Origin: an uncultured Methanobrevibacter sp.
GTDB taxonomy: Archaea > Methanobacteriota > Methanobacteria > Methanobacteriales > Methanobacteriaceae
Reading direction: 5' to 3'
Assembly: GCF_902774605.1 (NCBI RefSeq)
Contig: NZ_CACYJE010000008.1
Coordinates: forward strand, 1 to 58,495
DNA: 58,495 nucleotides
The translations under genes and the position numbers were made by a program. Each line of letters starts with the position of its first letter. Positions within the stretch are counted from its first letter, which is position 1. Positions 703 to 19,622 of this stretch are shown here, piece by piece. The notes under the pieces were generated by a model, which was not told where the DNA came from, searched no databases, and saw nothing but the letters and a program-made list of their open reading frames with translations.

Positions 703-1356
703 TCATATTCCAACTTTTTCAAAAGCCCTTTTGCGTCTCACACAGCTTTCACAAACGCCACAGGGTTCATCCTCTCCCTTATAACAGGAATAGCTTAACC
801 TCATTGGAGCACCAACCTTAACGCCCAACTCAACCAGTTCCTCCTTATTCAAGTTGATGCATGGTGCTTCAATCCTAATTTTATCCGGCGAGCCGACACT
901 CACCAATTCATTGAACTCATCGAGAAACTCACGGGAATTGTCTGGAAATGTCGCACCCTCCTCATTATTCCAGCCAACAATGATTGCTTCAGCCCCCATG
1001 CTTTCGGCATAGGCCAGGCCTATTGATGTGAAGACTGTGTTTCTTGCAGGAACCCAAACGTTGCCGGCACTCTCGCTGGCTTTATCCAAATCATCCAGAT
1101 CATCAATGGAAATCTCAGGAATGTCATCATCAGTATTCAGGCTTGAATTGCTGATGTCTGCAAGCCAGGGAAGGTCAATCACCTCATGGCTCCAACCCAT
1201 CTTCTCACAGATTCTCCTTGAGGCCTTCAATTCCTGCCTGAATGCCTTTTGCCCATAATTGAAAGTAATTGCATGAATCTCATACTCATCGTCAAAGACG
1301 CTGGTGGCTACGGTACAGTCAAGCCCGCCTGAAAAGATGCTTATCGCCTTTTTCAT
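703..1356 (-). CDS. queC: 7-cyano-7-deazaguanine (preQ0) synthase QueC
   Basis: ATP-dependent enzyme that converts 7-carboxy-7-deazaguanine to preQ0, which in archaea is the precursor of archaeosine at tRNA position 15. The PP-loop SGGLDCT is at residues 9-15 and the four zinc cysteines lie near the C-terminus (C191, C199, C202, C205 in CYKGEDEPCGVCESC). The length of 217 residues is normal. The start codon overlaps the end of larC by 4 bases (ATGA) with an AAGGAG ribosome binding site inside larC, so the two are co-transcribed and probably translationally coupled. Confidence 0.95.
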   Translation of the reverse strand: MKKAISIFSGGLDCTVATSVFDDEYEIHAITFNYGQKAFRQELKASRRICEKMGWSHEVIDLPWLADISNSSLNTDDDIPEISIDDLDDLDKASESAGNVWVPARNTVFTSIGLAYAESMGAEAIIVGWNNEEGATFPDNSREFLDEFNELVSVGSPDKIRIEAPCINLNKEELVELGVKVGAPMRLSYSCYKGEDEPCGVCESCVRRKRAFEKVGI

Positions 1357-2522
1357 CCAACCAACTCCTTAACGTCCTTTAAAGCCAAACCGGTATCCTT
1401 AGCTATTTTTTTCAAATCCTCAAACTCGGGACGCCTTGAAATGACCTTGCCGTTGACGTATCCAATCTTGAAGGTCACATCATAATCCTTGCCCTCAACA
1501 TTAACTGTCACGGTTTCAAATTCCCTTTTGGCAATTCCTCGATGCATGTTCGGTGCAATCCTAATGCCTAAACTGCCAGTCTCCTTGAATATTGTGTCAA
1601 TAATCCTTTCACGATTGTCCCTTCGGGAAATGACCTTAAGAAGGCTTCCCTGACGATTCTTCTTCATGATGATTGGTGTGACAGAAACGTCACTGGCTCC
1701 GGCATCCAAGAGCACGTCAAACAGATAACCGATTTCTTCGCCGGTCAGATGGTCAAGGTTGGTTTCAATGACATCGATTCTGTCGCTTTCGCTCATGTCA
1801 AGGGTTTCAATGATTCTTAAAACATTCGGATGGTCAAAGTCCTTGCGACCCGCACCGTAACCCACATTTGCCGGTTTGACTGAAGGAATGAATTCCTTGA
1901 TTTCGTCGCACAATTCCATATATATGGCTGAGCCTGTTGGCGTTGCAAGCTCACTGTCCACCGGACCTCCAAGCATCAGTGCACCCTTTAAAATCTCAAC
2001 AACTGCAGGTGCGGGAACGGGTATTGTTCCATGAGCTGTCTTCACCCTGCCTCCGCCGACGGCTATAGGAAGCCCTATTATCTTCTGTGAATCATATCCT
2101 AAACTGTAGTATGCGTAAACAGAACCTATCACGTCGGCGACAGCATCGCTGGCACCAACCTCATGGAAATGAACCTCTTCAAGGCTTTTGCCGTGAACCC
2201 GGCTTTCAGCCACAGCTATCCTTTCAAATATTTTACAGGCTGTGTCGATGACCTTTTCATCCAAATCCAATTCCCTGATTTTTGAAATGAAATCCTTAAA
2301 GTGAACCGAATGCTTGTGCTCCAGCATTTCAACATGGCAGAATGTGGAGTCGATGCCATGCTTTGACACTTTGGTGAATGTCACCTCAACTTCCCCGAAA
2401 TCATGTGCTGATTTTTCCATGACTTCCTTCAGTTCGCTGGCATCTGCTCCCAAATCAACAAATGCTCCTATTAACATGTTTCCGGCTATTCCGCTGGATT
2501 GCGGGTCGATAATGATTGTCAT
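1353..2522 (-). CDS. larC: LarC family nickel-insertion protein
   Basis: A 389-residue member of the LarC (DUF111) family. In lactobacilli LarC is a CTP-dependent cyclometallase that inserts nickel into the pincer cofactor of lactate racemase. Family hallmarks visible are the N-terminal DPQSSGIAGNMLIGA, the histidine-rich HFHEVGASDAVADVIG and SELATPTGSAI. It is one continuous frame, unlike species where larC is split into two frames. No larA, larB or larE is nearby, so the substrate is open; in methanogens a role in another nickel or cofactor process is possible. It is divergent from cbiS over a 62-base AT-rich gap that must hold both promoters. Confidence 0.85.
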   Translation of the reverse strand: MTIIIDPQSSGIAGNMLIGAFVDLGADASELKEVMEKSAHDFGEVEVTFTKVSKHGIDSTFCHVEMLEHKHSVHFKDFISKIRELDLDEKVIDTACKIFERIAVAESRVHGKSLEEVHFHEVGASDAVADVIGSVYAYYSLGYDSQKIIGLPIAVGGGRVKTAHGTIPVPAPAVVEILKGALMLGGPVDSELATPTGSAIYMELCDEIKEFIPSVKPANVGYGAGRKDFDHPNVLRIIETLDMSESDRIDVIETNLDHLTGEEIGYLFDVLLDAGASDVSVTPIIMKKNRQGSLLKVISRRDNRERIIDTIFKETGSLGIRIAPNMHRGIAKREFETVTVNVEGKDYDVTFKIGYVNGKVISRRPEFEDLKKIAKDTGLALKDVKELVG

Positions 2523-3661: not shown

Positions 3662-4444
3662 ATGGAAGATGACAGTTACTTTGAAGATGAGGAATTCTCA
3701 CCTACACGTTCGCTTTTAGGGCTTTTGACATTCTCGACAATACTGCCGATCAATGTATTCACATCAATCGAGTACATGACCAAGCTTACATGGGCATGGC
3801 CGTTCCTGCACATATTCATCGGTATTTTGGCGGCCGTCTGCGGTTATGTGTCACTTGAATTCCTGCACTTGAACTCATTTTTCACAGCAGCAATCGTTTA
3901 CGCGTTTCTAATGATAATAACTGGATACAATCACCTTGACGGCGTGATGGACATGGCTGACGGTGTCATGGTTCACGGAGAACCTGAACGCAAGATTATG
4001 GTGATGAAGGATTCAAGCGTGGGCGCCGGAGGAATGGCAACATTGTTCCTTGTGGCAAGCCTCACAATAGCCGGAATATATAACATACTTGATTATCACT
4101 TCATAGTTGGAATAATAATCTGTGAAATGACTGCAAAAACCTCCCTTGTAACAACAGCATTGCTGTCAAAACCATTGACACCGGGAATAGGCAGCTATTT
4201 CATAAACGAGATGAAAATACCTAATTATTTCGCATCAACAGTGGTTGTTGGCATCATCGCATACCTTCTTGGAGGATTCGTTGGAATCTGCGGAGTTCTT
4301 GGTGCAATAGTTTCAGGAATCATAATAGCCCATATCGCCAAGCGCAATTTCGTCCTTGCCAACGGGGATGTTCTTGGAATGAGCAATGAGGTTGGACGAT
4401 TGCTGTCATTGCTGTTCATGGCTGTAGCGCTATACTTCATTTAA
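3662..4444 (+). CDS. cobS: Adenosylcobinamide-GDP ribazoletransferase (cobalamin-5'-phosphate synthase)
   Basis: Integral membrane enzyme that joins activated cobinamide to the lower-ligand nucleotide, a late step of cobamide synthesis. The metal-binding signature NHLDGVMDMADGVM occurs about residues 92-105, and about six hydrophobic helices are visible. The length of 260 residues is typical. It follows cbiS with a 3-base gap and both act on the nucleotide-loop assembly stage, so the pair forms one operon. A methanogen needs cobamides for the Mtr complex. Confidence 0.95.
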   Translation: MEDDSYFEDEEFSPTRSLLGLLTFSTILPINVFTSIEYMTKLTWAWPFLHIFIGILAAVCGYVSLEFLHLNSFFTAAIVYAFLMIITGYNHLDGVMDMADGVMVHGEPERKIMVMKDSSVGAGGMATLFLVASLTIAGIYNILDYHFIVGIIICEMTAKTSLVTTALLSKPLTPGIGSYFINEMKIPNYFASTVVVGIIAYLLGGFVGICGVLGAIVSGIIIAHIAKRNFVLANGDVLGMSNEVGRLLSLLFMAVALYFI

Positions 4445-4459
4445 TCATTTTAATAAGTC

Positions 4460-4473
4460 AAAAGCAATATTGC
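4460..4473. repeat. Intergenic palindrome AAAAGCAATATTGC (copy 1)
   Basis: This 14-base element contains the perfect palindrome GCAATATTGC and matches the longer copy at 13567-13584. It lies just after cobS and before the candidate small RNA. It may be a protein-binding site; that is inference from its repetition in two intergenic regions. Confidence 0.35.
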
Positions 4474-4519
4474 AGTCGCCTGATGCATTGTTTTAAATAC
4501 TATTAGCGTTAAACATGGT

Positions 4520-4611
4520 GTTGTGAGAGAAAACCGCCATGCATGCATTTATATATTTGATTTACCATGAATGATGGTATCACCTCCTTCAATTTCCGGT
4601 GGTTTTTTCTC
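4520..4611 (+). ncRNA. Candidate small RNA with 14-bp closing stem and an exposed anti-Shine-Dalgarno sequence
   Basis: GAGAGAAAACCGCC (4525-4538) pairs with GGTGGTTTTTTCTC (4598-4611) over 14 base pairs including two G-U pairs. Inside are a small hairpin ACCAT-GAATG-ATGGT (4564-4578) and then ATCACCTCCTT (4579-4589), identical to the 3' tail of 16S rRNA. A TATA-like TTTTAAATAC ends at 4500, about 25 bases before the inferred 5' end, and the TTTTTT in the 3' arm could terminate transcription, giving an RNA of about 90 bases. The opposite strand instead offers a ribosome binding site AAGGAGGTGAT and a 19-codon reading frame (4509-4568), so strand and nature are uncertain. No Rfam family was recognised. 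Confidence 0.45.
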
Positions 4612-4653
4612 ATCAAATTTAAATATTCCAAGATTTAATAGTAAAATGATAAT

Positions 4654-5193
4654 ATGAAAGTAAATGTTTTAAGACTAGACCACAGATTGAAAAGGGACAC
4701 CCGTATCACCACCCATGTATGCCTGACCGCAAGAGCATTCGGAGCAAGCAAAATATACCTTGCCGGCGAACGCGATAACGGATTGATGGATAATGTGCGC
4801 GACACATCGTCAAGATTCGGAGGCAATTTCGAGATAGAGTACACTGAAAGCGCAATGGGCGTAATCAACAAGTGGAAGGCAGATGGCGGAAAAGTGGTTC
4901 ACCTGACCATGTACGGGTCACAGGCACATGAAATCGCACCTGAAGTGCGCGAGGACGGTTCAGACATTCTAATAATCGTCGGAGGATCCAAGGTTCCGGG
5001 CAAAATCTACAAGGCAGCCGACTGGAACGTGTCAGTGACAACACAGCCTCACTCAGAAGTGTCCTCATTGGCGGTATTCCAGCACCTGCTGATGGACGGC
5101 AAGGAATTCGAGTTGGAATTCGAAAACCCCGTGCTTGAAGTGATACCGACCGCTCATGGAAAAACCGTCAACATCCATGATGAGAACCGTTAG
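4654..5193 (+). CDS. trm56: tRNA (cytidine(56)-2'-O)-methyltransferase aTrm56
   Basis: A SPOUT-class archaeal enzyme that methylates the ribose of C56 in the T-loop of tRNA. The N-terminus MKVNVLRLDHRLKRDTRITT and the cofactor-knot region GGSKVPGKIYKAADWNVSVT followed by PHSEVSSLAVF are characteristic, and the length of 179 residues is normal. TTTAAAT at about 4617-4623 is a plausible TATA box placing the transcript start a few bases before the ATG, so the message would be almost leaderless. The gene overlaps DUF763 tail-to-tail by 4 bases. Confidence 0.93.
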   Translation: MKVNVLRLDHRLKRDTRITTHVCLTARAFGASKIYLAGERDNGLMDNVRDTSSRFGGNFEIEYTESAMGVINKWKADGGKVVHLTMYGSQAHEIAPEVREDGSDILIIVGGSKVPGKIYKAADWNVSVTTQPHSEVSSLAVFQHLLMDGKEFELEFENPVLEVIPTAHGKTVNIHDENR

Positions 5194-18938: not shown

Positions 18939-19012
<74 letters not shown>

Positions 19013-19128
19013 TTTAATTTATAGTGTTGCTATAAATTTTTGCATATTATGTTAAGATTATAGAAACATTTATATACTTGTAAATGTATATTATTATTAG
19101 TATGTTATCTGCATACATTATTGTGTGT

Positions 19129-19203
<75 letters not shown>

Positions 19204-19207
19204 TTGT

Positions 19208-19281
<74 letters not shown>

Positions 19282-19403
19282 TTTCAACTTAATTGTTTGA
19301 AATCATATGTAAATTTGTGAAATTAGTATGAATTTCCATAACCTTTATATATGATAAAAATTATATTAATTAAATAGTGTATTACTTACTGTTTAGGTCG
19401 TAA

Positions 19404-19475
19404 GCCCTGGTGGTGTAGGGGCTATCATGTGGGCCTGTCGAGCCCGCGACTCGGGTTCAAATCCCGGCCAGGGCG
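19404..19475 (+). tRNA. tRNA-Asp (anticodon GTC)
   Basis: The acceptor GCCCTGG/CCAGGGC is perfect and the anticodon loop is CTGTCGA with discriminator G. The TATA-like CCTTTATATATGA lies about 60 bases upstream. Confidence 0.95.
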
Positions 19476-19505
19476 CTCATTACTTAAATGGTATATAATT
19501 CATGT

Positions 19506-19579
19506 AGGCCTGTAGCTCAGTCTGGCAGAGCGCCTGGCTTTTAACCAGGCGGCCGCGGGTTCAATTCCCGTCAGGCCTG
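19506..19579 (+). tRNA. tRNA-Lys (anticodon TTT)
   Basis: The acceptor AGGCCTG/CAGGCCT is perfect, and the anticodon stem CCTGG/CCAGG encloses loop CTTTTAA. It lies 30 bases after tRNA-Asp and 43 bases before rpoH. Compare the irregular tRNA-Lys(CTT) at 45062. Confidence 0.95.
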
Positions 19580-19622
19580 TTTCTAATTTTATATTTTAAC
19601 TTTTCTATCTGGAGGAAAAAAT

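Follow-up and report, generated by a model that had tools for sequence, protein, structure and literature searches.

Organization of the cobS–trm56 intergenic region

In the 58,495-nt stretch of DNA from an uncultured Methanobrevibacter sp. analysed here (the window), two plus-strand genes, cobS (3662–4444) and trm56 (4654–5193), are separated by a gap that holds, in this order, a palindrome, a TATA-like box, a stem-loop and a second TATA-like box. The gene names are those given in the original prediction, which was made from the sequence alone, and they fit the reading frames. The palindrome, GCAATATTGC (4464–4473, no strand assigned), lies upstream of the first TATA-like box and reads TCAATATTGA in most relatives; in the form (T/G)CAATATTG(A/C) it keeps a near-constant distance to that box in almost all loci that carry the stem-loop element, and it may be the site of a regulator. 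A regulon of this palindrome was considered and rejected: the 12-mer AATCAATATTGA is in excess when compared with a reversed control, yet its genomic copies lie mostly within coding sequence. The first TATA-like box, TTTTAAATA (4491–4499, plus strand), is located about 25 nt before the stem and would serve a putative RNA gene; in relatives, where it is conserved, it reads TTTATATA, TTTAAATA or TTTATTAA. The second, AAATTTAAATATT (4615–4627, plus strand), is found some 30 nt upstream of the ATG of trm56, at a position where a TATA box is conserved, and is probably the promoter of trm56 itself.

The stem-loop between the two boxes is closed by 14 pairs, two of which are G-U, formed on the plus strand by a 5' arm, GAGAGAAAACCGCC (4525–4538), and a 3' arm, GGTGGTTTTTTCTC (4598–4611), which includes a T-run (4603–4608). 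The arms enclose a large variable loop (4539–4597, plus strand) containing the anti-Shine–Dalgarno motif AUCACCUCCUU (4579–4589, plus strand) with its conserved core CCUCC, and a small hairpin, UACCAU-GAAUG-AUGGUA (4563–4579, plus strand), adjoins the motif on its 5' side. It had been proposed that a 14-bp stem around AUCACCUCCUU, bounded by a TATA-like box and a T-run, represents a small RNA gene, and each of these parts was recovered; moreover, relatives show compensatory changes that preserve the stem, and they keep the TATA box. The plus-strand fold is better than 200 of 200 shuffled sequences (z −3.35) and the minus-strand fold is weaker (z −2.0). In the predicted fold of the window element, ACCUCC has a mean unpaired probability of 0.84. 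A covariance model, R1, was built from 29 elements and matches the window at 4518–4620 on the plus strand (E 1.5e-6, 50.5 bits; coordinates are the model span), a match obtained by construction because the window element is one of the 29 building sequences.

Distribution and origin of the element

The DNA upstream of trm56 was surveyed across the genus, which gave 64 loci at which the start of trm56 could be read. The element is present between cobS and trm56 in 42 of these loci, and in 21 others, all of which lie outside the element-bearing clade, trm56 is found directly behind cobS with no gap. At the one remaining locus (L029, genome G008) a tRNA-Gln (CTG) gene (1335–1408, minus strand) replaces the element, with the last part of the 3' arm (TCTCATCA) retained ahead of trm56. 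A genome of the cultured species Methanobrevibacter thaueri (L126, the same as L009) is among those that have the element. Two subtypes can be distinguished by the place of the motif, which is on the 3' side of the loop in type A (31 elements) and on the 5' side, partly as GGUUCACCUCCAUU, in type B (11 elements). On a trm56 tree of 63 loci, presence and absence of the element are accounted for by a single change (support 99/89), though this is a locus tree rather than a full species tree because trm56 adjoins the element. Judged from this sequence comparison, the element arose once.

When searched with R1, the element was detected at the cobS–trm56 locus only, with one copy per genome; weak R1 matches elsewhere in the same genomes, which were inspected as possible second copies, proved to be coding sequence or chance. 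Across the order, a match was obtained in 1 of the 19 genera sampled; however, distant forms could be missed, since R1 represents type A of one genus and misses type B, and since stricter search filters were used. A search of the whole window against Rfam 15 at gathering thresholds returned tRNAs only, five of whose genes (Thr, Pro, Tyr, Asp and Lys) are clustered on the plus strand at 18939–19580. With the cut-off relaxed to E 10, nothing meaningful in Rfam matched the element, and ten relatives gave no match at E up to 1.

Evidence for a plus-strand RNA

Covariation of the closing stem was found among relatives in both subtypes. In type A, 91.7% of pair cells form standard pairs, 6 of the 15 pairs have changed on both sides, and the covariation score is 0.180 as compared with 0.116 in shuffled alignments (0 of 500; the shuffles ignore relatedness), a signal that is lost when the partners are slid against each other. 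The type B stem is paired in 97.2% of cells, with 5 of 13 pairs changed on both sides. The imperfect pairs also indicate the strand: read on the plus strand they comprise 23 G-U and 2 A-C, whereas an RNA made from the minus strand would show the reverse, and 6 of the 23 G-U cells come from a single column pair with uncertain alignment. Between species, identity is 92.5% in the arms, 47.7% in the loop and 48.3% at fourfold-degenerate trm56 sites; thus the arms are under selection, while the loop, the motif excepted, drifts as if it were neutral. Taken together, the conserved stem with its compensatory changes points to a real RNA gene on the plus strand, and from the conserved TATA box we infer that the RNA is transcribed separately, from its own promoter. 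We also considered a box C/D guide RNA, with its box C (RUGAUGA) and box D (CUGA), and rejected it: most relatives do carry UGAUGAG in the 5' arm, where it is base-paired, it is lost in the window (UGUGAGA), and no CUGA was seen near the 3' end when the sequences were read by eye.

The CCUCC motif

CCUCC is present in 38 of the 42 element loops and GGAGG in none. Other orders of the same letters occur in at most two loops, except for CTCCC (14 loops), which mostly overlaps CCTCCC. Folds were predicted for 33 CCUCC-holding elements, and in 31 of them ACCUCC is unpaired more often than the average of its loop; the position of the motif in the loop differs between the two subtypes. The core usually lies within (A)YYACCUCC, and the letters that precede it vary (AUCACC, AUUACC, UUUGCC, UUCACC). 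While AUCACCUCC, as found in the window and in many relatives, matches the 16S rRNA tail exactly, one subgroup carries UUACCUCCC in place of AUCACCUCCU, and UUUGCCUCC, GGUUCACCUCCAUU and UUCACCUCCA are found among further relatives. Because the letters before the core vary, it is the anti-Shine–Dalgarno core that is conserved and not the 16S tail. The motif is not essential, since 4 of the 42 elements do without CCUCC while having the stem, and the mismatch-free motif may simply be a C-rich single strand for a protein. The four loci in which the stem is kept and CCUCC is lost (L028, L031, L035 and L056) provide natural tests of the role of the motif.

These data also bear on the idea, put forward in the original prediction, that the RNA mimics the 3' end of 16S rRNA, that is, helix 45 followed by the anti-Shine–Dalgarno tail. 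The two do have AUCACCUCC in common, and in the window a hairpin precedes it. However, this hairpin, although real in the window, is not conserved (it beats shuffles at p < 0.05 in 5 of the 28 testable elements), the full AUCACCUCCU is not conserved and the motif is variable outside CCUCC; furthermore, the motif is internal in the loop and not at a 3' end. The prediction had thus picked out a real element on the right strand, and a plus-strand RNA gene, with a putative promoter of its own and an exposed anti-Shine–Dalgarno motif, is supported, but reading it as a 16S mimic goes further than the evidence.

Proposed function and alternative explanations

We favour, as a probable though by no means certain explanation, that the element encodes a small RNA whose loop masks the Shine–Dalgarno sequences of target mRNAs and thereby lowers their translation. 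According to this model, an RNA of about 90–105 nt would be transcribed from its own promoter, from the interval 4518–4620 on the plus strand. Its single long closing stem would present a large, mostly unstructured loop, in which the exposed CCUCC could pair with GGAGG-type Shine–Dalgarno sequences; this pairing would block binding of the 30S subunit, and the stem might stabilize the RNA or bind a protein. Comparison among relatives shows, at the level of sequence, a conserved single-locus element with its stem, strand, exposed motif and one origin, and because such a stem holds open a loop bearing an anti-Shine–Dalgarno motif, translation of other genes is probably switched off. A broader possibility, which we consider rather speculative, is that this new archaeal family, born once in the cobS–trm56 operon of gut Methanobrevibacter, is a general translational brake, in which one loop with its exposed core contends with ribosomes for a large number of mRNAs at once, or attaches to a protein recognizing the 16S tail, rather than acting on a single target.

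The position of the element, always directly upstream of trm56, together with the T-run within its 3' arm and the possibility of a read-through transcript, would be in keeping with a cis-acting leader, that is, a stem-loop in the trm56 5' untranslated region or at the 3' end of the cobS mRNA that controls trm56 by attenuation or mRNA stability. This explanation appears unlikely to us, mainly because a separate TATA box follows the element and precedes trm56 in every element-bearing locus that was read, and because the trm56 leader (TGATAATATG or similar) offers CCUCC no GGAGG to mask. In addition, trm56 lies directly behind cobS where the element is absent, and the loop varies more than a ligand-binding leader would allow.

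A different role for the same motif would be that of a protein decoy, in which the RNA imitates the 16S 3' tail for a binder (archaeal Pno1/Dim2, Nob1 or the like) and would in this way adjust initiation or the maturation of ribosomes. The GGAUCACCUCC end of 16S rRNA is bound by archaeal Dim2, and the identity of AUCACCUCC with the 16S tail, seen both in the window and in many relatives, would suit such a binder. We nevertheless regard a decoy as quite improbable, as variants such as UUACCUCCC, UUUGCCUCC and GGUUCACCUCCAUU keep CCUCC alone, and neither the GG that precedes the motif in the 16S tail nor the helix-45-like hairpin is conserved.

Inverted repeats that flank a variable middle, and that were inserted a single time between two genes which other species have side by side, could also be the remnant of a non-autonomous mobile element with the arms as its terminal inverted repeats. 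It is very doubtful that this explains the element, which is present as one copy per genome, always in the same place and with no convincing second copy by R1, and whose strongly constrained arms change in a compensatory manner, G-U pairs included, across many species; such a remnant may account for its origin and not for its present role. Finally, the suggestion that AAGGAGGTGAT on the minus strand is the Shine–Dalgarno sequence of a 19-codon gene (MVNQIYKCMHGGFLSQHHV, 4509–4568, minus strand), which would be a strong one in the window, can hardly be upheld and we judge the frame not to be a gene, because no frame is conserved: after GGAGG nearly all relatives have no frame or an unrelated one, mostly of fewer than 12 codons, type B has its motif next to the stem, which leaves too little space for a frame, and the stem changes track plus-strand RNA pairing. 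Conservation of the minus-strand frame alone, when looked for, gave way to the opposite result.

Relation to known regulatory RNAs

The element represents an RNA family that is new to Rfam 15 and, as a small RNA masking Shine–Dalgarno sequences, which we propose here, would be of a functional kind that is already known. In Methanosarcina mazei, loop 2 of sRNA154 masks the ribosome binding site of glnA2, and in polycistronic mRNAs such sites are masked by sRNA41; both RNAs have known targets and nitrogen-linked expression (PMC5867862). The element shares with these two RNAs the methanogen host, an intergenic location, its own promoter (here putative) and an anti-ribosome-binding-site sequence in a loop; however, they belong to a different archaeal order, and the likeness is one of mechanism and not of descent. 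The αr14 sRNAs carry CCUCCUCCC anti-Shine–Dalgarno motifs in unpaired regions, with stems that differ in sequence (PMC10746234). An unpaired and strongly conserved CCUCC-type motif in loops is common to this family (NfeR1 and its relatives) and to the element. The αr14 RNAs are alphaproteobacterial, with three hairpins and three copies of CCUCCUCCC, whereas the element has one long closing stem and one CCUCC, and its stem is the better conserved part; here too the similarity concerns mechanism and not descent.

The archaeal regulatory RNAs of known mechanism that turned up were few and came from Methanosarcina and haloarchaea; among the open papers searched, we found none from Methanobrevibacter and no description of the element. 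Methanobrevibacter is a main methane producer of the rumen and gut. As the family can be traced in about 40 species and has a dated single gain, its origin within an operon, its later drift and the fate of its motif are open to study, and it offers a ready means of testing whether Shine–Dalgarno sequences are blocked by archaeal RNAs through a generic motif.

Candidate targets

Motif complements were scanned for in the genome of the window and in type A2 and type B relatives, and no common target gene emerged; for this reason we infer, rather than report, the transcript and the repression step, including the pairing with Shine–Dalgarno sequences. In type B, complements of the long conserved motif were not in excess over the control. 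The complements in type A2 relatives were scattered, and among them were sites at the start of a BioY-like transporter and at that of an adhesin-like protein. The sequence AGGAGGTGAT occurs four times in the genome of the window, namely in the element itself, at the start of an adhesin-like protein, inside an ATP-synthase-like gene and at a 34-codon frame. At the adhesin-like protein (L160, 1501–1510) it constitutes the Shine–Dalgarno sequence, ahead of a TTG start. A similar adhesin-like protein in genome G070 (L195) has TTGGAGGTAA ahead of its start, and judging from these leader sequences the two adhesin-like proteins are possible targets of the RNA.
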